Source of the DNA: a virus
DNA: 23,741 nt
IMG/VR virus record: IMGVR_UViG_3300036792_000085
Location: 1-23,741 of that record
Direction: 5' to 3' (one strand)
A model generated the notes under the pieces. The model did no database searches and was not told where the DNA came from. It was given only the letters and a program-made list of their open reading frames with translations. A program made the position numbers and the translations under genes. Below are positions 1,769 through 11,312 of this stretch, piece after piece. How positions within the stretch are numbered: the first letter of the stretch is position 1; the number at the start of each line of letters is the position of its first letter.

Positions 1769-2128
1769 CTGACCAATGACCAGCACGCAGTCTTCCAGAC
1801 CCAGACATTCAACCTCGCGGCGATCAGCGATATTGGTTCGCACAACGAGACAAGAACCGTCACCAACGATATCGAACACGTCCTCGCCGCGCTCGTCGAG
1901 GCGGGTAGTCTGGTCGTGGACCATCCGTACCAGCGCGTGATCTATCGCGACAGCGAGCACATCTGGGATCAGGTCGTGATCGATGACGCGTGTCGCTTCG
2001 TGCGCTTCGCGCCGCTCAAGGAAAAGCCCGAGGATCTCCGGCCCGAGCCCGCGGCCGATCCACGCGCGCTGTTTGCGCTACTGCTTCTGCACGAGTGCTA
2101 TGCGGGGATTCCGGGAGGCACGTCGTGA
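1769..2128 (+). CDS. Phage hypothetical protein, possibly winged-helix; start codon lost or non-standard
   Basis: The reading frame is open from 1691, after a TAA at 1688, to the TGA at 2126. From about 1769 onward its third positions are mostly G or C, as in the neighbouring genes. The first ordinary start in frame is the GTG at 1916, which would leave 70 residues and discard clearly coding sequence such as NDIEHVLAALVEAG. A CTG at 1769, three bases after GGAG (1762-1765), would give 119 residues. An ATG at 1776 with a better-spaced site is in another frame, so a one-base indel near the start is also possible. The segment ISDIGSHNETRTVTNDIEH followed by a strand-rich region looks like a winged helix, but this is a weak guess. 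The end overlaps the next gene (GTGA). Confidence 0.55.
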   Translation: MTNDQHAVFQTQTFNLAAISDIGSHNETRTVTNDIEHVLAALVEAGSLVVDHPYQRVIYRDSEHIWDQVVIDDACRFVRFAPLKEKPEDLRPEPAADPRALFALLLLHECYAGIPGGTS

Positions 2129-2406
2129 ACAGAAAACTACTCTTGGCGCTCTGCGTGTCCGCGCTGCTTGGCGCGTGCCAGACCGTTCCTGACCAGTACA
2201 CCACTCAGTTCCAGAAGGAAGGCAAGCCGCAGCCCTATATCGATGGTCACGGCGACGGATGCCGCAGCGGGTATAACGCGGCGGGCAATCCGTACTTCAA
2301 GATGACGAAGGACCCCGCACGCTTCGCCAGCGATCCGATGTACGCACAGGGCTGGACCGATGGCTATAACACCTGCAAGTCGCGCTATGAATCCATCGAC
2401 AAGTAA
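2125..2406 (+). CDS. Small lipoprotein
   Basis: A 93-residue protein with a lipoprotein signal: MNRKLLLALCVSALLGAC, with lipobox LGAC and lipidation expected at Cys18. The mature part is hydrophilic and rich in Gly, Tyr and Asp (YIDGHGDGCRSGYNAAGNPY, then QGWTDGYNTCKSRYE), and its two later cysteines could form a disulfide. The GTG start at 2125 is set by GGGAGG (2113-2118), six bases upstream, and by overlap with the preceding stop. It is probably membrane-anchored in the periplasm. Prophage lipoproteins of this size often modify the lysogen surface or exclude other phages, but nothing in the sequence fixes the role. Confidence 0.8.
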   Translation: MNRKLLLALCVSALLGACQTVPDQYTTQFQKEGKPQPYIDGHGDGCRSGYNAAGNPYFKMTKDPARFASDPMYAQGWTDGYNTCKSRYESIDK

Positions 2407-2500
2407 GGCACTCAATGTCCGTGCCGCGCTGCTGCTCGTGCTTGATTACGTCGCCGCGCATGTCGTCTGGTCCGCGCCGCGTCCCGGAGACAGGTCATGA
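2387..2500 (+). CDS. 37-residue hydrophobic peptide gene, coupled to its neighbours
   Basis: This small frame starts at ATG 2387 inside the end of the lipoprotein gene and stops at TGA 2498-2500, which overlaps the next start (ATG 2497) as ATGA. The peptide begins MNPSTSKALNVR and has a hydrophobic middle (AALLLVLDYVAAHVVW) long enough for one membrane segment, then a short charged tail. Third positions are strongly G or C through the part beyond the lipoprotein stop, as in a real gene. It fills a 90-bp gap that would otherwise be empty in a fully overlapping cluster. No clear ribosome site is seen, so translation would depend on coupling. Function unknown. Confidence 0.55.
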   Translation: MNPSTSKALNVRAALLLVLDYVAAHVVWSAPRPGDRS

Positions 2501-2934
2501 ACGCGCGACAGGCACTCGCCATGAGCCTGATGTTTTTCGCGGCCGGCGCAACGGCGCAAACCAGTGCGCAGGAGATCGATGCGGCGAACAAGGCATGGCG
2601 CGACAGCCTGCCCGAGGCGACGGCCGACTATGGTGCCTATCCCTCCAACTACGAAACGATAGTCAGGGCGTATCTGGGAAAATCGCTGAAGGACCCCGAG
2701 TCCGCGCGCTACGGCGAGTTCACGAAGCCCGAAAAGGATCAGGCCATCGAGAGCGTGGGCCAGCGACGCGCGCTCTATGGGTACGTGACCTGCGTCGATG
2801 TGAATGCGAAGAACAGTTATGGCGGATACACGGGCGCACAGCGCTACTGGTTTCTCATTCGCGACGACAGCGTGGTGCGCTATGGTACGGGCAACATGTA
2901 CATCGATCATGCGCCGAAGTGTCTGACGCGATGA
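2497..2934 (+). CDS. Exported hypothetical protein with an LKDPESARY segment
   Basis: A 145-residue protein with a cleavable signal peptide (hydrophobic MSLMFFAAGATAQ, predicted cleavage after the AxA-type ATA near residue 20) and no lipobox. The mature part contains SLKDPESARYGE, a segment recurring in small exported proteins of proteobacteria and their prophages, followed by an aromatic, Gly-rich stretch (YGYVTCVDVNAKNSYGGY). Two cysteines, at the TCVDV segment and near the C-terminus, may form a disulfide. GGAG (2486-2489) lies seven bases before the ATG, and both ends overlap neighbours by four bases. It is probably periplasmic with an unknown role, perhaps at the envelope with the lipoprotein upstream. 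Confidence 0.8.
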   Translation: MNARQALAMSLMFFAAGATAQTSAQEIDAANKAWRDSLPEATADYGAYPSNYETIVRAYLGKSLKDPESARYGEFTKPEKDQAIESVGQRRALYGYVTCVDVNAKNSYGGYTGAQRYWFLIRDDSVVRYGTGNMYIDHAPKCLTR

Positions 2935-3347
2935 CTTCCACACCACTTCTGATCGGTCCGGTCGAGCGCGCCACGCTTCACGAACTGCGTATCCGCGCGA
3001 ACCGTCATCCCGTCGATGCGGCCACGCTTCAGGCGAGGGTCGATACACCTGACGGCAAGGCCGCGCATCGCGCGCAGATGACCGAGCAGAGCGTCGCCAT
3101 CCCGGCCGCGTTCCTTGTGACGTTTAGCATCGAGACGAATCACCCGAGAGGCACGTACCGGCACATGAGCGTAAGCGTGCAGCGCGAGGGGCGCGTACCG
3201 AGCCGCGAGAGCGTCTGGATGATCGCGCAGGCACTCGGCTTCACGGGCACGCTCGATGACTGCATTGCGTACATGGAAAAACTCGACGGCCACGGGGAAG
3301 CCGTGAATGTCCTGCAGCTGGTGACACCCGCCGAGGCGCGCGCGTGA
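2931..3347 (+). CDS. Phage hypothetical protein
   Basis: A 138-residue, soluble, cytoplasmic-looking protein with no signal peptide or membrane segment. I do not recognise a domain. A mixed C-terminal half contains SRESVWMIAQALGFTGTLDDC, which could be two helices. The start at ATG 2931 is chosen because it overlaps the preceding stop as ATGA. The same frame stays open further upstream, to 2415, but there it only shadows the preceding gene. The end overlaps the next gene as GTGA. It sits mid-operon between the exported protein and a DUF3846-like protein. Confidence 0.75.
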   Translation: MTSTPLLIGPVERATLHELRIRANRHPVDAATLQARVDTPDGKAAHRAQMTEQSVAIPAAFLVTFSIETNHPRGTYRHMSVSVQREGRVPSRESVWMIAQALGFTGTLDDCIAYMEKLDGHGEAVNVLQLVTPAEARA

Positions 3348-3673
3348 ACCTCGACTATCCGACGCGGCGCCTGCTGCGCACCGATGGCACGGTGATCGAA
3401 CTCGACGGTCCGAAGGACATGGCCGAGATCGAGGCGCTGATTGGTGGCGACTGCGAGGCAACCGATGTCGTGATGTTGCGCGACCGGCTGCACGTGATGA
3501 TCCTCGACGACACGGGCGCATCCAGGAACCTGCCTGTCAATCCCGCGGCGACCGCGCTCTATCACGAGATCTGCGTCGCCGGTACCACGTGGCCGATTCG
3601 CGGTGACGTGGTGATCCTGCCCGACACCGACTTTGCACGCGAGCCGCTGAACAATCCGGCGCTGCGCTTCTGA
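3344..3673 (+). CDS. DUF3846-like protein
   Basis: A 109-residue protein whose layout matches DUF3846 proteins found in phages and plasmids. It opens with a short strand region (LLRTDGTVIELDGP), continues with an EIEALIGGDCEATDV segment, then NLPVNPAATALYHE, and closes with IRGDVVILPDTDF, corresponding to the family's usual 'N-A-T-L ... I-x-G-D-V-v-v' ending. The biochemical role of the family is not known to me. The GTG start at 3344 overlaps the preceding stop (GTGA), and only two bases separate its stop from the next ATG. The protein is soluble with no export signal. Confidence 0.75.
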   Translation: MNLDYPTRRLLRTDGTVIELDGPKDMAEIEALIGGDCEATDVVMLRDRLHVMILDDTGASRNLPVNPAATALYHEICVAGTTWPIRGDVVILPDTDFAREPLNNPALRF

Positions 3674-3675
3674 CC

Positions 3676-3924
3676 ATGAATACGAACCCGGTCTCATGCC
3701 GCCGCTGCGGCAAGTCCAACGAGGACCAGACCTATACGGGCAGTGTGCTGCGCGTGCCGCACGATGGCGACTGGAGCCTGTGCGGGTACTGCGGTCTGTG
3801 GTCGGTGTTCGACGGCGGCGCGCTGCGCGAACCGACGCCTGACGAGGCGGACGAGATCGCGACGAATCCCGAGGCTATGGAAGCGGCGCGAATCGTCGCG
3901 CAGATAGCGGGTGGACCCCGCTAG
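3676..3924 (+). CDS. Small zinc-ribbon protein
   Basis: An 82-residue protein with two CxxC knuckles, CRRC near residue 9 and CGYC near residue 37, the usual Zn(Cys)4 ribbon arrangement. The C-terminal half is acidic and helical (PTPDEADEIATNPEAMEAARIVAQ). Such phage proteins often bind nucleic acid or a protein partner, but no specific function can be assigned. It is the last gene of the first rightward block, with two hairpins immediately downstream. The ATG at 3676 lies two bases after the preceding stop, so translation is probably coupled. Confidence 0.75.
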   Translation: MNTNPVSCRRCGKSNEDQTYTGSVLRVPHDGDWSLCGYCGLWSVFDGGALREPTPDEADEIATNPEAMEAARIVAQIAGGPR

Positions 3925-3936
3925 TCCCGTGTAGCA

Positions 3937-3969
3937 ACGCGCCGGCGCAGCCCTCACTCGCCGGCGCGT
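3937..3969 (+). terminator. Perfect 11-bp hairpin, first of a tandem terminator pair
   Basis: ACGCGCCGGCG (3937-3947) and CGCCGGCGCGT (3959-3969) are perfect complements around an 11-base loop. No T-tract follows directly; the palindrome CTTTCGAAAG (3970-3979) bridges to the next hairpin. It probably reinforces the terminator downstream or protects the 3' end of the transcript. Confidence 0.6.
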
Positions 3970-3975
3970 CTTTCG

Positions 3976-4006
3976 AAAGCCCGCTCCCTCGTGCGGGCTT
4001 TTTTTT
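3976..4006 (+). terminator. Rho-independent terminator of the first rightward block
   Basis: AAAGCCCGC (3976-3984) pairs with GCGGGCTTT (3993-4001) around an eight-base loop, followed by T-rich DNA to 4006. Position and polarity fit termination of the operon ending with the zinc-ribbon gene at 3924. Confidence 0.9.
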
Positions 4007-4019
4007 CGGGTGCGTCAGC

Positions 4020-4057
4020 CAGTCAGAGTAAAGACTCTGACTGTTTTCGTGTACACG
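4020..4057 (+). promoter_or_regulatory. 10-bp hairpin with TTTT, abutting the palindrome CGTGTACACG
   Basis: CAGTCAGAGT (4020-4029) and ACTCTGACTG (4034-4043) form a perfect 10-bp stem with loop AAAG, followed by TTTT at 4044-4047. The next ten bases, CGTGTACACG (4048-4057), are a perfect palindrome. The hairpin could be another terminator and the palindrome an operator for the second block, but no matching promoter elements are clear. Confidence 0.45.
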
Positions 4058-4135
4058 GGTTCGTCACCCTGACACTATGGATTCCGTAGTAACGCAGTAC
4101 CCGAAACGAACGACCCGCAGGACAGAACAGCGCTT

Positions 4136-4156
4136 CCCGCCTCTGGCGGGTTTTTT
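4136..4156 (+). terminator. Rho-independent terminator with no protein gene upstream
   Basis: CCCGCC (4136-4141) pairs with GGCGGG (4145-4150) around the loop TCT and runs into TTTTTT (4151-4156). It lies 130 bp after the preceding terminator and 31 bp before the next start codon, with no credible coding frame between. It therefore ends either a small RNA or a leader transcript (attenuator) of the following operon. Confidence 0.85.
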
Positions 4157-4187
4157 ATGGGCGCTCTAATTAGTCAGGACAACATAG

Positions 4188-4385
4188 ATGAAACTTGGAA
4201 ACGATGCGCGCCAGCTGTACGAAGCGATCAGGGCGCTATGCGAACCGGGCGAAACGGACACGTACCTCGACCTGGCCGAATCGCTCGCAGAAATCTACGG
4301 CGCGCGCTCTCGCGCGGCCTGCGATGAACTGGTGCGCGCTGGCTATATCACGCTGCACGAAACGTATGTCTCGATCAACAAATGA
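4188..4385 (+). CDS. Small helical, possibly HTH, protein
   Basis: A 65-residue protein that opens the second rightward block. It begins MKLGNDARQLYEAIR and continues with two or three helices (LAESLAEIYGARSRAACDELVRAGYIT) and a short closing strand pair, an arrangement resembling a small winged helix in which a recognition helix precedes AGYI and a strand. The resemblance is by eye only. AGGA at 4176-4179 lies eight bases before the ATG. It may regulate the antirestriction gene next door, but this is inference from position. Confidence 0.65.
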   Translation: MKLGNDARQLYEAIRALCEPGETDTYLDLAESLAEIYGARSRAACDELVRAGYITLHETYVSINK

Positions 4386-4410
4386 GACCGATTTTTAAAG
4401 GAGTAACGAA

Positions 4411-4827
4411 GTGAGCAAGACCATTACCGCGCAAGCCGTCCCGACTGTTGACCGGCTGCGCTTTCTGCCCGAGATGTTTGGAACCGGACTGATGATGCGC
4501 GCCGAATCGCTGCTGTACCACCAGGCGAGCCAGCTGTCGGTCGACTACACAGGCGGCTACTGGGCGTTCTATCGCCTGTCGAACGGCGGCGGCTACGCCG
4601 CACCCGATACGGCAAAGCGCTTCACGGTGTATGTGCCGGGTAACGACTTCGAGGGCGAGGTGAGCGCCGATGCGTTTGGCGTGATCGTCACGCTGTTCGT
4701 GTTCGGCGCGCTCTGCTGGATCGAGAACGAAGCGCTGCGCGAGAAGTTCAACGACCACTACCACCAGCTGCGCGACTTCGCCAGGGACCACGCCGAAGCC
4801 GGCGCGATCTTCCGCGCGATTGACTGA
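4411..4827 (+). CDS. ArdB/KlcA-family antirestriction protein
   Basis: A 138-residue protein of the ArdB/KlcA antirestriction family, which relieves type I restriction of incoming DNA, apparently without the DNA mimicry used by ArdA. Family landmarks run the full length: RLRFLPEMFG near residue 16, MMRAESLLYH, then the signature YTGGYWAFYRLSNGGGYAAPD (about residues 47-67), YVPGNDFEGEVSADAFGVIVTLF, a FNDHYHQLRDFARDH helix and the terminal HAEAGAIFRAID. Length matches the usual 135-145. The GTG start is fixed by AAAGGAG (4397-4403), seven bases upstream. A T8 run follows just after its stop. In a prophage it would protect against host restriction on entry or transfer. Confidence 0.92.
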   Translation: MSKTITAQAVPTVDRLRFLPEMFGTGLMMRAESLLYHQASQLSVDYTGGYWAFYRLSNGGGYAAPDTAKRFTVYVPGNDFEGEVSADAFGVIVTLFVFGALCWIENEALREKFNDHYHQLRDFARDHAEAGAIFRAID

Positions 4828-4848
4828 TTTTTTTTGAGGACTGAAACC

Positions 4849-5361
4849 ATGAACACGAAGACCACGAAGACCGCTGGACAAATCGAGTGCGGTATCTGCA
4901 AGACGCACTTCGCGCCGCTCAACACGAAACAGAAGTACTGCTCGGACGAGTGCAAGGCCGAAGCCAAGCGCGAAGCGAACCGCCGTTTCTATGCGGTGCA
5001 CGGCGGAGCCAAAGCCGACCCAAAGAACCAGATGCGCGCGCAGATCGAGCAGTACCTCTGGGCGCGGACCGGCCAGACGCTGGCCGCTGGCTGGACCGGC
5101 AACGGCGCGGGGCTCGCCTTCACGCGGCGCACCGATGCGCAGCTGGAACGGCTCGGCTCGATGAACGCGGACGCGAAGCGCCTGCTGGCCGATGCCGAGA
5201 AGATCGTCGTCATGCTGAACGTGCGCGCGCTGTGCAACGGCCGGTACAAGGAACTGACGACCATCGGGCAGAGCGAAGCGACGTTGCGCGAAGCGCTCGC
5301 CGTCGCGATTGATGGACTGGCGGAATCGATGACGAACAACGAAGGGGTGATCGCAGCATGA
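4849..5361 (+). CDS. Zinc-finger hypothetical protein
   Basis: A 170-residue protein with a Cys4 motif near the N-terminus: ECGICKTHFAPLNTKQKYC continuing SDEC, that is CxxC then CxxxC, followed by a basic helix (KAEAKREANRRFYAVH). This resembles the short treble-clef fingers that bind nucleic acid. The rest is helical and without a domain I recognise. The ATG at 4849 is preferred because GAGGA at 4836-4840 lies eight bases upstream; an in-frame TTG at 4834 lies before that ribosome site. It follows the antirestriction gene by 21 bases and overlaps the lipoprotein gene downstream by ATGA. Confidence 0.75.
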   Translation: MNTKTTKTAGQIECGICKTHFAPLNTKQKYCSDECKAEAKREANRRFYAVHGGAKADPKNQMRAQIEQYLWARTGQTLAAGWTGNGAGLAFTRRTDAQLERLGSMNADAKRLLADAEKIVVMLNVRALCNGRYKELTTIGQSEATLREALAVAIDGLAESMTNNEGVIAA

Positions 5362-5585
5362 AAGCGTTGTTTGCCCTGGCGCTGGCCGCCTCACTGTCGG
5401 GCTGCGCCGCGTTCTGCGATTCGAACGACACCGGCTGTATCAACAAGGCGAACGCCTTCGCGGCCGGTGTCGCTGCGGCGGGTGTCGCGACGCTCGGCGC
5501 CGCGGCTGCGGTCGAAGCGTCGCGGCCGGTCTACTACTACGCGCCGCCGCCCGTGGTCTATGTCTGCCGCTGGCCTTACTGCTAA
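5358..5585 (+). CDS. Small alanine-rich lipoprotein
   Basis: A 75-residue protein with a lipoprotein signal (MKALFALALAASLSGC; lipobox LSGC, Cys16). After a short Cys-containing segment (AFCDSNDTGC) comes an Ala/Gly/Val-rich hydrophobic stretch (AFAAGVAAAGVATLGAAAAV), then a Tyr/Pro-rich tail ending VCRWPYC. The hydrophobic stretch might lie in or against a membrane. It starts four bases inside the preceding gene (ATGA) and lies 21 bases before the superinfection immunity gene, suggesting an envelope role with it. Function unknown. Confidence 0.75.
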   Translation: MKALFALALAASLSGCAAFCDSNDTGCINKANAFAAGVAAAGVATLGAAAAVEASRPVYYYAPPPVVYVCRWPYC

Positions 5586-5606
5586 ACCTGTTTTTCTGGA
5601 ATCAAG

Positions 5607-5777
5607 ATGACTGTCCAATCCATTGTTTTCGTGTCGCTGCTGCTGTACTTCGTGCCGTCCATCGTCGCCTGCAGACGGAAGAATCGCGCCGCGATCTTCG
5701 TGACGAACCTGCTGTTCGGCTGGACCATGCTCGGCTGGGGGATCGCCCTGATCTGGGCCGTCAAGACTGACGCATGA
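5607..5777 (+). CDS. Superinfection immunity membrane protein (Imm family)
   Basis: A 56-residue membrane protein of the superinfection-immunity family typified by T4 Imm, which sits in the inner membrane and blocks DNA entry by later phages. The first helix (IVFVSLLLYFVPSIVAC, about residues 6-22) carries the family's Pro-Ser-Ile-Val-Ala motif. A basic turn RRKNRAAI follows, and the second helix contains the diagnostic TNLLFGWTMLGWGIALIWAV (about residues 33-52), matching the family's 'N-L-x-x-G-W-T-x-x-G-W-x-x-A-L-x-W'. Only a weak ribosome site (TGGA) precedes the ATG. The stop overlaps the next start as ATGA. The gene is easily missed because of its size. Confidence 0.9.
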   Translation: MTVQSIVFVSLLLYFVPSIVACRRKNRAAIFVTNLLFGWTMLGWGIALIWAVKTDA

Positions 5778-5872
5778 GCGACCTTGTCCTCGTGGTGCTG
5801 GCCGTCATTCCGGCCGGCATCGCGCCCGGCGCTGGCGTCGCGTACCTCTGGTCGCGCTGTTTCGATCCCTAA
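5774..5872 (+). CDS. 32-residue membrane peptide
   Basis: A small frame starting at ATG 5774, overlapping the stop of the immunity gene (ATGA) and ending at TAA 5870-5872, whose last bases begin the terminator stem. The peptide has one hydrophobic segment (LVLVVLAVIPAGIAPGAGVAYLW) and ends SRCFDP. Third positions are nearly all G or C, as in the genes upstream. Coupling to the immunity gene suggests it may be an accessory membrane partner. No family is recognised and it is too short for homology by eye. Confidence 0.6.
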   Translation: MSDLVLVVLAVIPAGIAPGAGVAYLWSRCFDP

Positions 5873-5895
5873 AGCCCGCTTCGGCGGGCTTTTTT
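5871..5895 (+). terminator. Rho-independent terminator of the second rightward block
   Basis: AAAGCCCGC (5871-5879) pairs with GCGGGCTTT (5884-5892) around a TTCG tetraloop, followed by T to 5895. It overlaps the stop codon of the 32-residue peptide gene. Its stem is nearly identical to that of the terminator at 3976-4006. Confidence 0.93.
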
Positions 5896-6107: not shown

Positions 6108-6305
6108 CTAGTGATGTTCTTCGTCGACCTCACCGGCTGTCGCGCTGTCGTCCTCGACCGTCTCCAGTTCGCGCAGTTCGATGATGCCGCCCGTCGCCTC
6201 GAGTTCGGCCTCGTCGCCCGCCTCGATCTGCGAGTCGTTCACGGTGTCGTGGTCGATGATCACGCGGATCGGGTGGGCTCCCGTGTTGCTGATGGTCACG
6301 TTCAT
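6108..6305 (-). CDS. Small acidic hypothetical protein
   Basis: A 65-residue, strongly acidic protein, the last visible gene of the leftward operon. It begins MNVTISNTGAHPIRVIIDHD and continues with beta-like, Glu-rich sequence (EAGDEAELEATGGIIELRELE), ending in an acidic tail with EEHH. The fold may be a small beta-sandwich or hairpin; no family is recognised. The start at 6305 has AAGGAG a few bases upstream and overlaps the stop of the preceding gene (ATGA). No clear leftward terminator follows. Being late and beyond the fibre genes, it could be a decoration or accessory virion protein, but this is a guess. Confidence 0.75.
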   Translation of the reverse strand: MNVTISNTGAHPIRVIIDHDTVNDSQIEAGDEAELEATGGIIELRELETVEDDSATAGEVDEEHH

Positions 6306-6601
6306 TTGCTGTCTCCTTGGGTTGAACGGTTCGGGACTGGCTGCGGTATTGATGCGGGTTGCGGTGTCGATGCAGGCGGCGGAAGTCCTTTCCGCGGCCT
6401 CGGCGGCAGCACTGGCCGGATCGAGGCATCGCTCGCCTCGACCCGCGCGAAACACAGGATGAAGCAGGACGGCTGCCACGCGCTCGCGTGCGGCGGCGCG
6501 TGATCGCCCGCGCAGCTGGTCAGCACAAGCATGAGGAGGAGCACGCCGAAAACGATCACCATGGCGAGATAGAACACGCGGCGCGCGGTCTGCGGGTTCA
6601 T
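6302..6601 (-). CDS. Proline-rich lipoprotein or membrane-anchored protein
   Basis: A 99-residue protein with a long hydrophobic N-terminus (VFYLAMVIVFGVLLLMLVL) leading to a lipobox-like LTSC at residues 27-30. The rest is extracytoplasmic and proline-rich towards the end (PVLPPRPRKGLPPPASTPQ, then PASIPQPVPN). Outer-membrane spanins of the Rz1 type are short proline-rich lipoproteins, so a role in lysis is conceivable, but no Rz-like partner or other lysis gene is nearby. It could equally be a surface-modifying lipoprotein. The start at 6601 overlaps the chaperone stop (ATGA), and the stop overlaps the next start in the same way. Confidence 0.7.
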   Translation of the reverse strand: MNPQTARRVFYLAMVIVFGVLLLMLVLTSCAGDHAPPHASAWQPSCFILCFARVEASDASIRPVLPPRPRKGLPPPASTPQPASIPQPVPNRSTQGDSK

Positions 6602-7002
6602 GGCTTCACCGGCCATTGCACGGACGCCGGAAAGCCGGGTTGCTGGGGTACGTCGCGCAGCGCCTGCCGGTAGGCGCGCGCTTTCTTCTCTGCTTCGATA
6701 TCGCCGGTATCGCTCGCACGCGCCACCATATGATCGGCTTCCTGAAGCATCAGATAGCGCCTGTCGCGTGCGGCCTTCGCGGCTTCGTCCGTGAGGCACG
6801 CGGTGCCGTGCTTTGCCCATAGCGCCGCGATCTCGTCGGCGGATGGCTGCGGCCTGTCCGTCTCCCACTTCATGATGAAGGCTTCATCGGCCTGTTCGAA
6901 GGTCTTGCCATGCACCGGGTGCCCGGCCAGAAAATCGCGCCCGTGCTGCAGGTCCGGGTAAAGCTGCCGGATGCAATAGATCAGTTGATCGCCTGAAAGC
7001 AT
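6598..7002 (-). CDS. Tail fibre assembly chaperone-like protein
   Basis: A 134-residue protein directly downstream of the tail fibre gene. The C-terminal part has the look of phage tail-fibre assembly proteins (XkdW and DUF4376 types): a helix AARDRRYLMLQEADHMVARA, then KKARAYRQALRDVPQQPGFP and the terminal VQWPVKP. The 'YRQALRD-P-QPGFP-W-P-KP' ending recurs in that group. The N-terminal part (MLSGDQLIYCIRQLYPDL) is less familiar. It would help fold or attach the fibre and act in the cytoplasm. The start lies nine bases after the fibre stop, with only a weak GGCGG ribosome site. Confidence 0.8.
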   Translation of the reverse strand: MLSGDQLIYCIRQLYPDLQHGRDFLAGHPVHGKTFEQADEAFIMKWETDRPQPSADEIAALWAKHGTACLTDEAAKAARDRRYLMLQEADHMVARASDTGDIEAEKKARAYRQALRDVPQQPGFPASVQWPVKP

Positions 7003-7011
7003 GATGGCCGC

Positions 7012-7992
7012 CTATCCGTTATAGGGGTCCGCTACAAAGACCTTGATGCTGGTCCATTGCCCGTCGCCGCTACCCTGCAATCCACCCAGCACCCACGGGC
7101 TCGAAGCCATCCCCGTATTCGCGCCGATGGTGCCGATCTGGATCAGCCCCGCGCCCCAATAGGTAGATGCGCCGCGATAGGACTTGTTGCTCAGGTCCGA
7201 ATACAGATTCTTGCCCGGCACGCCATTGCCGACATGATTTCCATCGTTGTTGATCGTGGTGTAGCCATTCCCGATGCTCAGCCCGCCCACGAGACTGATA
7301 GAACCCGTATCCGAGATAAAGCATGGAACCGAGTTATAGGCATTGTTGACGAACTCGACGCCGCCGTTGCCGGCCGAGCCACCGCGAACAAACATGCGGT
7401 AACCACCCGCACCGCTAAACACGGTTTCACCGCATCCGGCTTGCGGGCACCCGGGCCCGTAGTTGAGATACACCCGGCCGTTGTGCGTAAAATCGCTGTT
7501 CGCATCAACGTGCCCGGTAAGTGTTGTCGCGCCGGTTTTCGGATTGACCGCGAGCACCCATTGATTGCCGGCCGTATTGGTGAAGCCTATGTAGGGGGTA
7601 ACCGGGTCATTGCTAAGGAAGCCGACGGTCTTCGCGGCCGAATCGGTGAAGGTGACATTCGCGCCGCCCTGCAGGACCAGATTGCCCGTCATGGTGTCGC
7701 CGGTCTTGCTCACCTTGGTGTTGGCGTTCGTGTTGGCGTTGCCGACCGCGGTGCGAAGGTCCCCAAGGAAGTCATCGAGCGGCCCGATATTCACCCACGC
7801 ATCGTTGGCATTGGTGCGGCGCTTGAGCCGGTTCGCGGTTGTGTCGCCCCACATCATGCCGGGATACATCTCGGCCGGCTGATTGGGTCCGCAGTTGTCC
7901 CCGAGGATGGCGAGCACGATGGCGTTCAGCTGCGTGCGCATGTCCAGCCCTGACGGATGGGCCGGAACCTGATAGCTCAGAACCTGTGTCAT
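7012..7992 (-). CDS. Tail fibre / receptor-binding protein
   Basis: A 326-residue protein between the J homologue and a fibre chaperone. The N-terminal 75 residues (from MTQVLSYQVPAHPSGLDMR) contain MMWGDTTANRLKRRTNANDAWVNIG, a small segment common in fibre N-termini. SKTGDTMTGNLVLQGG near residue 95 is the classical tail-fibre repeat motif preceding beta-structured shafts. The C-terminal 200 residues are Gly-, Asn- and Ser-rich and beta-like, the part expected to bind the host surface. Cysteines in GCPQAGCGET are unusual for such a shaft. GGGAG lies seven bases before the start at 7992, and the start overlaps the J stop (ATGA). No intramolecular chaperone domain is seen. Confidence 0.85.
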   Translation of the reverse strand: MTQVLSYQVPAHPSGLDMRTQLNAIVLAILGDNCGPNQPAEMYPGMMWGDTTANRLKRRTNANDAWVNIGPLDDFLGDLRTAVGNANTNANTKVSKTGDTMTGNLVLQGGANVTFTDSAAKTVGFLSNDPVTPYIGFTNTAGNQWVLAVNPKTGATTLTGHVDANSDFTHNGRVYLNYGPGCPQAGCGETVFSGAGGYRMFVRGGSAGNGGVEFVNNAYNSVPCFISDTGSISLVGGLSIGNGYTTINNDGNHVGNGVPGKNLYSDLSNKSYRGASTYWGAGLIQIGTIGANTGMASSPWVLGGLQGSGDGQWTSIKVFVADPYNG

Positions 7993-10900
7993 GTTTCCAC
8001 TCCCGTGATCAGTTCGCGCGTGCTCAATACCGCGTCGCTGTCGAGGCCGAGCAGCCTCATATAACCCAGGCCGTCGAGGTCGGTATGCTCGTATCCATAG
8101 CCGCGTGCGATCCAGTCACAGGTCTTGCCGATGCCCGTGCCGGACGAGTTCTGGAACTGGATCGTGAAGCCGCGTGCGCTCTGGTTCGTGATCGCCCACT
8201 TGTCGCCGCTCGCGAGTCCCTGGGCAACGATGCTGATGGCGGGCGCATCCTTGAACGGCACCGTGAAGGTGATGACGGTACCGCCCGTCGCAATCGTGAC
8301 GTTGTTGCGGCTCTCGATGCGGTCGGGCACATCGACGGTCGCCCCCAGCGAGACGATACCTATGCCGGTAATATCGTCGGGCACCTGCACCAGCAGCGCG
8401 AACTTCGCGGCGCGGAACGTCAGGTCCGCCACCAGCAGCCGCGTCCATGGCGACCAGTCGCTGGCGGTGGCGCTCGCCGGGTCGACGTTGGTCTGCGTCA
8501 CCATCACGACCGCGCCCCCTTCGTCGATCTTGCTGCCGTCCACGTCGACCCGCGCATCGAAGTCGGGCCACTCGTCCACATCGTCCAGCAGGTTGTACAC
8601 CGCGCCGTCGATAAAGGACGTACAGCGCACCGTGTACACCTTGCCCATGTCGATGCCATGGTCAAAGTAATACGCGCCCTGTGTCGAGACAGCGTGTCCG
8701 GTGCCGGGGTCCTGTGCGAGGTAGAGCACGCCCGTACGCACCACCATGTTGACCTTCTGGCCGGCATAGCCGGGGTCCTGTTCGAGCGTGGCGATCAGGT
8801 TGTAGTCGCGCAGCGGCCCGGTCGTGCTGACGATATAGGCGGGATTGACCGAGTAGGCCCCGGACGAGTTGACGAACTTGCCGAGGTACGTGCCCTTCAT
8901 CAGCACCACATAGCCGTTACTCTGTCCACCGGGAAAGCGGGCGATCTCGTTGCATTCTTCCCACGTCAGCAGCGTGGACATCTTCGCGTTGTAGCGCACC
9001 ACCACGTTACCGCCCACGATCACATCGAGGTCGGTCGCCGGCAGCCATGTGAGATTCGCGCTGTCGCTGATGATGTCCAGCTGGAACCCGCGCATGTCGC
9101 CGGGCGGCATGTTCAGCGCGCGCAGCTGCGCCGTGATCGAGGCGGGACCGCTACGCACGCCAATGCTGTTGAAGGCCCACACCGTGAAGTACCACACGCC
9201 CTCCTGCGTCGGCTGGATATCGATGCTGCTGGAGAACACGTTCTCGACATAGACCGGCGTGCCCGCCTCGAACTGCCACGAGACCGCGTAGCGCACGGCA
9301 CCGAGTGGGGCAAGCCACGAGAAAGTGGCGCGCGCGCCGATCACCACGGGACTCACCTGATACTTCGACTCGGTGATATTGAGTTCGGTCGGCGGGCTGA
9401 TCGAGAACGGATCGATGATCGAGACAGGCGGCAGCTGGAGCGCGATGTCCTGCTCGATGGCCGCGAACTTCGACGGGTTATAGGCAATGCCCGAGATCTC
9501 GATGTTGCCGTCCTCGTCCTCGGCCACGCTGATACAGCGCCACTGTTCCAGTTGCAGGTTAGAGCCCGCGACCGCCCACGGTCCCATCACCATCGGCGGC
9601 AGGCTGAAGGGCGGCGAGACCATCAGCGAGGTCTGCACGCCGCTGGCGTTATTCACGGTGCGCGATTCCCATGCGCCATCGACACGCATGATCGCGAGCG
9701 TATAGAACACGCCACTCTGAAACGTAATCGGCGCATCGATCCCGATCTGGTTCACGTCGCCGCCCGTGATCCGGCCGCCGTAGCGCACGCCCGCGCGCAC
9801 GGGATCGGTCGTATAGAAGATGTCGCCCGGCCGCGCGAAGGCGGCATTGATCCCCGTCCTGAAGGTGACGGTCTCGCTCAGGAACTTCTCGGTGAGCAGC
9901 GCCCACTTGCCGATGCGGTGCGCCTGTCCGCGCGAGGTACAGCCGAAGGCCGTGATCTGCAGTTCGCGGATGCCCCATTGCGTGATCGCGTCCGCGTCCT
10001 CGACGTACTCGATCTCCTGCTGGTAGCGCGTGGCCGGATTGTTCCACGTCACCAGCGCGGTCGTGTGCCGCTGGTTCAGCGGCGTGCCCGTATAGCTGAA
10101 AGCCCCGTCGACCACGTTCGCGGTGTTGTAGATCGTGACCGGATCATCCGGCATGTCGGCACTGAAGGTGAGCGTGCCGCCGCTCCAGAAGATCAGCCCG
10201 TTGAAGATCGAGGCGAACTGCTGGAGCAGCGCAATCGCGTCACTGCGTGCCTGGATGTAGCAGTTGCAGGTATAGCGCGGTTCCCAGCCGCCATAGCCAT
10301 CCGGCACCATCGCATCGCAGTACTGGCCGATGGTGTAGAGCGTCCACTTGTCGACCAGCGATGGCGACAGGTACGCACCCAGCCCGAAGCGCTCGGTCGT
10401 CGCGAGATCGAAGATGATCCATGCCGGGTTGTCGCTCCACGCGATTTTGAACGTGCCATCCCAGATGCCGCTATAGGTGCGCGAGGCCGGATCATAGTTC
10501 GAGGGCACCTGGATGCGGCGCATCCGGCAGTCGAACGAGAGTTTCGGAATCGACTTGAAAGTCGAGGCGTCGATCTGCACCCCGCACACGGCCGAGTACG
10601 GATACATGAGGGTGGAATCGACGATCTCGGTCAGCGACTCCCAGTTGAACTTGTCCTGCACGTTCACGGTGGTCGAGTCGGGCGTGAGCCGCCGTACGCG
10701 GATATCGTACGTGCCGCCCACGATGCCGAAGCGCGCCAGCGAGAGCCGGTACGAGCGCTGGTAGCGGCTGGTGGTCTTGCCGCTCACGGTATCGACGTAC
10801 ATCTGCACCCAGCCGCCGCTATTGCGCTGCAGGTCGATAGCCAGCTGCACGGTGGTGCCGTTGATGTCGCCCGTGGTCGGGTTCGTGCTGGTCATCACCG

Positions 10901-11312
10901 GAAAGCCGAGCGTCACGCGGATCGCGGTCACGTTCGGATTGGTGATCGTGCGCACCACGGGCGCGGCCGCGGTCACGGCGACACCGACCGGGCTCTCGTC
11001 CTCGGCCGCCGAGAAGCCAGGGATCGGCGTCTGGTTCGGCAGCCCCGTGCGCCAGTCGATGCCCGCGCCGTTGAAGTTCCACGTGCCGTCCGCATTGGCG
11101 AGGGGCGTGTCGTCGCAATAGATGCCCTGTGCGCCGCCCACGATGGCATCGATCTCGCCCTCGCACAGCACGTTGATCACCCGCGCGTACTGGACCGACA
11201 CGAGCGAGTCGGGTGCCTCGACCGGCGCGCGCGCCGAACCGCCACCGCCGCCGCCCTTGCCACCACCGCCGCCCGAGCCGGTGACGAACGGAATCAGGTC
11301 GCGTGTGCCCAT
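7989..11312 (-). CDS. J: Tail tip / host specificity protein, lambda J-like
   Basis: A 1107-residue homologue of lambda gpJ, the trimeric central tail-tip protein. After a flexible Gly-rich segment (GSGGGGGKGGGGGG) comes the typical J N-terminus: SVQYARVINVLCEGEIDAIV, YCDDTPLANADGTWNF, then ITNPNVTAIRVTLGFP and RYQRSYRLSLA. The middle holds LQQFASIFNGLIFWSGGTL, typical of the J baseplate-like domains. Fibronectin-III-like repeats follow from about residue 650 (ATFSWLAPLGAVRYAVSWQ, WYFTVWAFNSIGVRSGPAS), as expected for the family. The C-terminal 150 residues differ from lambda and may carry the receptor contact or fibre attachment. Its ATG overlaps the I stop by one base. Confidence 0.95.
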   Translation of the reverse strand: MGTRDLIPFVTGSGGGGGKGGGGGGSARAPVEAPDSLVSVQYARVINVLCEGEIDAIVGGAQGIYCDDTPLANADGTWNFNGAGIDWRTGLPNQTPIPGFSAAEDESPVGVAVTAAAPVVRTITNPNVTAIRVTLGFPVMTSTNPTTGDINGTTVQLAIDLQRNSGGWVQMYVDTVSGKTTSRYQRSYRLSLARFGIVGGTYDIRVRRLTPDSTTVNVQDKFNWESLTEIVDSTLMYPYSAVCGVQIDASTFKSIPKLSFDCRMRRIQVPSNYDPASRTYSGIWDGTFKIAWSDNPAWIIFDLATTERFGLGAYLSPSLVDKWTLYTIGQYCDAMVPDGYGGWEPRYTCNCYIQARSDAIALLQQFASIFNGLIFWSGGTLTFSADMPDDPVTIYNTANVVDGAFSYTGTPLNQRHTTALVTWNNPATRYQQEIEYVEDADAITQWGIRELQITAFGCTSRGQAHRIGKWALLTEKFLSETVTFRTGINAAFARPGDIFYTTDPVRAGVRYGGRITGGDVNQIGIDAPITFQSGVFYTLAIMRVDGAWESRTVNNASGVQTSLMVSPPFSLPPMVMGPWAVAGSNLQLEQWRCISVAEDEDGNIEISGIAYNPSKFAAIEQDIALQLPPVSIIDPFSISPPTELNITESKYQVSPVVIGARATFSWLAPLGAVRYAVSWQFEAGTPVYVENVFSSSIDIQPTQEGVWYFTVWAFNSIGVRSGPASITAQLRALNMPPGDMRGFQLDIISDSANLTWLPATDLDVIVGGNVVVRYNAKMSTLLTWEECNEIARFPGGQSNGYVVLMKGTYLGKFVNSSGAYSVNPAYIVSTTGPLRDYNLIATLEQDPGYAGQKVNMVVRTGVLYLAQDPGTGHAVSTQGAYYFDHGIDMGKVYTVRCTSFIDGAVYNLLDDVDEWPDFDARVDVDGSKIDEGGAVVMVTQTNVDPASATASDWSPWTRLLVADLTFRAAKFALLVQVPDDITGIGIVSLGATVDVPDRIESRNNVTIATGGTVITFTVPFKDAPAISIVAQGLASGDKWAITNQSARGFTIQFQNSSGTGIGKTCDWIARGYGYEHTDLDGLGYMRLLGLDSDAVLSTRELITGVET

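Follow-up and report, generated by a model that had tools for sequence, protein, structure and literature searches.

Do the small genes that lie between the integrase and the tail operon of a temperate phage work as one system, or do they share no more than a site? The question is raised by 12 open reading frames (ORFs) at positions 1769-5872 of the window, the term used here for the whole stretch of DNA analysed, a 23.7-kb IMG/VR virus record (IMGVR_UViG_3300036792_000085; right end cut). From left to right, the window carries a tyrosine integrase, the rightward 12-gene cassette, and leftward tail, head, and terminase genes; roles of structural genes other than tail protein J are presumed from gene order. 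We consider it likely that the cassette is an accessory (moron) hotspot for defence and counter-defence genes, in which an antirestriction operon is resident while the cargo is exchangeable. The hotspot would belong to a temperate siphophage lineage of Burkholderiaceae and occupy the slot that separates the integrase or attachment end from the tail operon's 3' end. As such, the feature adds one more case to a type of phage hotspot already known, with an antirestriction gene as its constant part. The anatomy of the cassette, the family membership of its KlcA protein, the constant position of KlcA in the lineage, and the turnover of the partner genes were established in this analysis.

A sequence-only reading had described 12 small rightward genes in two blocks parted by terminators, and ORFs, strands, and terminators were found as stated. 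All 12 lie between the integrase and the convergent tail operon; a1-a6 form block 1, closed by a terminator at 3976-4001 (+ strand; 9-bp stem, T run), and b1-b6 form block 2, closed by a terminator at 5871-5892 (+ strand; 9-bp stem, T run). Terminator-like sites in the region number 9, versus 3.2 in shuffled sequences (sd 2.1; both strands). G+C at codon position 3 is 0.70-0.84 and is the highest of the three positions in all 12 ORFs; because this is the signature of coding DNA, the ORFs are probably real genes. Homologues were found for 10 of them, in other genomes or phages for a1, a2, a3, a5, a6, KlcA (b2), b3, and b5, and in sibling phages for b1 and b4; none was found for a4 and b6. The 4-nt ATGA/GTGA overlaps are real, but occur at half of the within-block junctions rather than at most of them as first read (5 of 10: a1/a2, a3/a4, a4/a5, b3/b4, and b5/b6). 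No named family was assigned to a1, a2, a4, a6, b4, or b6, and scans of the cassette proteins gave nothing solid with PADLOC and chance-level matches only with NCBIfam.

The constant gene is b2 (4411-4827, + strand; GTG start), which encodes a KlcA/ArdB antirestriction protein of 138 amino acids (aa). Judged by homology, its membership in the ArdB/KlcA family is secure: it matches PF03230 (E 2.7e-33, 114 bits; curated cut-off 25), PHROG 10132 (antirestriction), and, over residues 4-138 and hence full-length, the solved KlcA structure (PDB 2KMG; E 5.6e-34). Its last residue, Asp138, is invariant in 9 aligned phage KlcA proteins; in ArdB of R64, the C-terminal Asp, D141, is needed for activity (PMC12429846). 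Full-length homology, the C-terminal Asp, and carriage by a mobile element are shared with characterised ArdB/KlcA proteins, whereas the window copy, whose activity is predicted, is resident in an integrating siphophage lineage instead of a plasmid.

Relatives were drawn from genome and virus collections with tail protein J (7989-11312, - strand) as anchor, which is 65% identical in L003; further siblings were obtained via KlcA alignment, b1, and family-wide genome searches. Thirteen distinct siblings (the Caballeronia prophages L005, L006, and L007, together with L008, L009, L151, L153, L203, L207, L209, L210, L212, and L217) are marked by J or neighbouring tail genes, the stretches of L207 and L209 holding downstream tail genes only. 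The profile of each cassette gene was then compared with six-frame ORFs of the 14 prophages, window included; reversed-sequence decoys gave 0 matches. KlcA is present in 14/14, always in the same place and convergent with the tail module, the fixed position beside conserved phage genes that characterises a hotspot. The remaining content turns over strongly, as in a hotspot: the Imm gene (b5) occurs in six of the 14 cassettes, either 5' or 3' of KlcA; a1 in three; the DUF3846 gene (a5) in three (the window plus L153 and L207, the latter two by Pfam); b1, b3, and b4 in two each; and a2, a3, a4, a6, and b6, five of the 12 genes, in the window only. Like a moron, the cassette has its own terminators, and a terminator lies 0.7-1.7 kb 5' of KlcA in 8 of the 13 siblings (9/14 with the window).

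That the blocks might be conserved as units in other prophages held for the layout in one sibling, most genes not being kept together. In L207, the two-block anatomy of the window is kept in the same order: the block-1 side carries an a1-like gene, which lies past a serine recombinase and an XRE-type regulator, then a DUF3846 gene that overlaps a Cys-pair gene, and finally a terminator; the block-2 side carries an Ala/Lys-rich protein, KlcA, a b4 homologue, a transmembrane (TM) peptide, and a further terminator that faces the tail operon. In a tree of 67 rows, one branch separates the 14 lineage KlcA proteins from the rest (branch support 77/46; present in 79% of bootstrap trees), which fits inheritance within the lineage with modest support. 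KlcA was found in 44 of 399 Burkholderiaceae genomes. At 40 KlcA loci that do not belong to the lineage, not one of the 11 remaining cassette genes occurs within about 8 kb; many of these loci adjoin, by eye, ParB-like, DUF932-like, or toxin-antitoxin-like genes.

In P2-like phages, P4 satellites, and prophages of other species, anti-phage systems have been described from hotspots that span a few kb and are flanked by conserved phage genes (PMC9122126). In mobile elements, antirestriction genes are found grouped with anti-CRISPR genes amid many small uncharacterised genes (PMC7648647). Like these, the cassette is a region of a few kb, fixed in position between conserved phage genes, whose small genes turn over quickly and include defence or anti-defence genes; it differs in that the antirestriction gene is constant, and that the defence cargo of relatives lies only putatively inside the prophage. 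The candidate cargo lies on the block-1 side of the KlcA operon and consists of a type III Res gene preceded by the C-terminal portion of a Mod gene, directly beyond the terminator 5' of the KlcA operon (L209:1-3402); a ResIII helicase gene in the same placement, 96% identical to the former (L210:340-2955, equal to L230:3925-6540); and a 234-aa TIR protein, a full-length match to the PADLOC ThsB model (E 3e-127), which together with half an HsdS gene adjoins the KlcA operon (L203:1-1511). The restriction-modification (RM) DNA of L209 and L210 is 94% identical, versus 86-88% for the adjoining phage genes.

Several points weigh against the hotspot interpretation. The RM and TIR genes sit where predicted proviruses end, and a search for attachment repeats or tRNA genes marking the ends of the relatives' prophages gave none that were convincing; for these reasons, the genes in L209, L210, and L203 may be either prophage cargo or host flank. 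Several sibling contigs are incomplete, which makes the gene counts for the block-1 side minimum values in part. Since the siblings share ancestry, the counts do not come from independent cases; support for a single origin of their KlcA is modest. A shared order is seen for some of the a and b genes, so functional links are still conceivable. A scan for one promoter type gave no sigma-70-like match (0.9 expected by chance).

Under the hotspot interpretation, the activities and timing of expression that we infer are as follows. Block 2 would be a resident counter-defence operon, comprising a small DNA-binding-type gene, KlcA/ArdB, and then exchangeable small genes for membrane proteins or lipoproteins; block 1 would be a separate transcription unit in a more variable slot. 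KlcA would be made in the cell being entered, perhaps also in the lysogen, and would relieve type I restriction, allowing unmodified phage DNA and other incoming DNA to survive. Its target may be wider than restriction, since a relative, AcrIC11, an ArdB/KlcA homologue, blocks a type I-C CRISPR system (PMC10810201). The remaining genes would be independent cargo: b1 may regulate the block 2 operon, b4 and b5 may act at the envelope against superinfection, and from block 1 the lysogen may gain protection or benefits of an unrelated kind. If this is right, each new prophage of the lineage, which has Caballeronia-type hosts, offers a fixed site where exchangeable small genes can be read beside a constant antirestriction gene, and candidate defence and counter-defence genes can be listed cheaply; the direct question is then which exchangeable neighbours of KlcA alter infection.

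A possible but doubtful alternative is that block 2 is chiefly an operon for superinfection exclusion and lysogenic conversion that the lysogen, above all, expresses; KlcA would then be one independent function among several. It would draw on b5 (5607-5777, + strand), a hydrophobic peptide of 56 aa that exceeds the curated cut-off of Imm_superinfect (PF14373; E 1.9e-16, 60.1 bits versus 27.9) and carries the PHROG label 'immunity to superinfection', and on the lipoboxes of b4 and a2. The predicted lipoprotein b4 (75 aa; 5358-5585, + strand; lipobox LSG|C; ATGA overlap with b3) has a homologue, 57% identical, directly 3' of KlcA in L207. Resemblance of b4 to the Cor exclusion lipoproteins (PHROG 1119) was rejected: the match (E 0.014) covers residues 1-31, the signal peptide only, and the two are alike as short lipoproteins of similar length, not in the mature protein. 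The constant gene, moreover, is KlcA and not Imm. Of the 399 Burkholderiaceae genomes, 204 match the concatenated cassette query, nearly all in the b5 part among the matches listed, in searches that score few candidates per genome and in which absence is no proof of absence. Because the Imm family thus occurs in about half of these genomes, its name argues only weakly for exclusion; membership in so widespread a host family alone shows no role in superinfection. Imm_superinfect peptides also occur in small genomes (about 2 Mb), where there is usually a single copy. They may have a cellular role, and the family could be misleadingly named.

We regard as unlikely an early lytic region for takeover and counter-defence, read on infection and not in the lysogen. 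Antirestriction must act on entry, relatives of KlcA and of the DUF3846 type occur among the small genes of Pseudomonas phage Luminis and Achromobacter phage CF418P1, and b3 (170 aa; 4849-5361, + strand) has an N-terminal Cys finger of NinG/HNH type (PF05766; E 9.3e-5, below the cut-off); a b3 homologue lies directly 3' of KlcA in L151. Against this, the place beside the integrase and the genes with signal peptides better fit accessory loci, and both blocks have their own terminators.

Less probable still is a reading in which a1-a6, the genes of block 1, make up a protection system not yet described. Of these, a2 and a3 would act at the envelope and a4-a6 in the cell interior, and incoming phage DNA would be shielded by the KlcA operon; the system would sit in the exchangeable slot, the place at which type III restriction or TIR genes border the relatives.

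The weakest reading, which the sequence-only account had proposed and we think very improbable, has the genes act together in the lysogen as a single system for exclusion or anti-defence, located at the envelope: its ArdB/KlcA homologue and Imm-family gene are indeed present and recur at this place in siblings (14/14 and 6/14, the two together in six, Imm on either side), and a lipoprotein and a TM peptide lie 3' of KlcA in L207 as in the window, but it is not supported because co-inheritance does not hold, five genes occurring in no sibling cassette and most others in 2-3 of 14, most thus scattered and unlinked in related phages, with no partner gene shared by the 40 outside KlcA loci, an Imm gene that switches side and belongs to a family common in host genomes, and two transcription units with their own terminators. 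Imm and lipoprotein names near KlcA do not make a system.

The individual genes of the cassette follow, beginning with block 1. Gene a1 (119 aa; 1769-2128, + strand; function not assigned) has no in-frame ATG, GTG, or TTG 5' of 1916, and the CTG at 1769 is its likely start because homology reaches upstream of 1916. It forms the integrase end of the cassette in the window and in two sibling phages; homologues occur in Burkholderiaceae mobile elements and in the siblings L153 and L207, and a single-protein scan of phages and plasmids gave no match. Identification as SduA (PADLOC E 0.0058) was rejected, the match being short and weak. A gene resembling that of an ATP-dependent DNA ligase domain adjoins an a1 homologue at L148:2840-3948, and L217:222-830, on the far edge of that sibling's cassette, encodes another such domain (PF01068; E 1e-26).

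The predicted lipoprotein a2 (93 aa; 2125-2406, + strand; lipobox LLGA|C; GTGA overlap with a1) has homologues outside the siblings only. The predicted exported protein a3 (145 aa; 2497-2934, + strand) belongs to PHROG 2320 (E 1.1e-26), to which no function is attached; its homologue, gp20 of phage ES18, is annotated as a 'possible moron' and has terminators on both sides, but lies inside the tail genes, unlike a3. The predicted structure of a3 (pLDDT 52) was not used. The orphan a4 (138 aa; 2931-3347, + strand; ATGA overlap with a3) gave no convincing homologue in single-protein scans of phages and genomes or in sibling profiles. Gene a5 (109 aa; 3344-3673, + strand; GTGA overlap with a4) is DUF3846-like (PF12957: E 2.3e-5, 24.9 bits, below the cut-off of 27.5; PHROG 3777: E 9.5e-10), and the DUF3846 genes at the corresponding place in L153 and L207 exceed the Pfam cut-off. 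The last gene of block 1, a6 (82 aa; 3676-3924, + strand), encodes a Cys-pair protein of zinc-ribbon type, with a homologue at the integrase end of record G004.

The two lipoproteins, the exported protein, and the two hydrophobic peptides first proposed stand as predictions, the lipoboxes of a2 and b4 and the signal peptide of a3 having been assigned by eye. In the two putative zinc-binding proteins, a6 and b3, the Cys pairs were confirmed and suggest zinc binding. The second hydrophobic peptide, b6 (32 aa; 5774-5872, + strand; ATGA overlap with b5), gave no homologue when its profile was compared with the siblings.

Directly 5' of KlcA lies b1 (65 aa; 4188-4385, + strand), a possible small winged-helix DNA-binding protein. 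In L203, a homologue that is 64% identical has Imm close on its 5' side and KlcA directly on its 3' side. The AlphaFold model (H-H-H-E-E; pLDDT 71) supports a small winged helix with middling confidence; winged-helix matches are many, every one with E > 0.1. HTH_17 matches in siblings are below the cut-off. A helix-turn-helix gene 5' of KlcA common to unrelated phages was considered and rejected, the matches in L222, L226, L227, and L229 being Ala/Lys/Pro-rich low-complexity proteins. Ala/Lys/Pro-rich, histone-H1-like proteins are encoded just 5' of KlcA in L163, L207, L221, L222, L226, L227, and L229, which represent more than one kind of phage.

Between the blocks lies a leader (4020-4150, + strand) with a perfect 10-bp hairpin at 4020-4043 and a terminator-like hairpin at 4136-4150, 37 nt 5' of b1. 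The stretch 4010-4187 folds better than shuffled sequences (z -2.8) and is a possible attenuator or small RNA; an Rfam scan of the cassette gave no family at threshold (best E 0.075, all far below gathering). The inter-block palindrome was rejected as a conserved operator, being present in no other locus compared.

The cassette is flanked by the tyrosine integrase (143-1516, + strand, start at 266 more likely; PF00589, E 3.4e-16) and by the 3' end of the convergent tail operon (6108-11312, - strand), which contains tail protein J. Integrase types vary among siblings despite matching tail modules, with a distant tyrosine integrase in G004 and a serine recombinase in L207. Among the tail genes, a Cys-containing, proline-rich, lipoprotein-like ORF at 6302-6600 (- strand), with a similar motif (PACLxFCFAEVRSSID) in siblings, is possibly an Rz1-type spanin.

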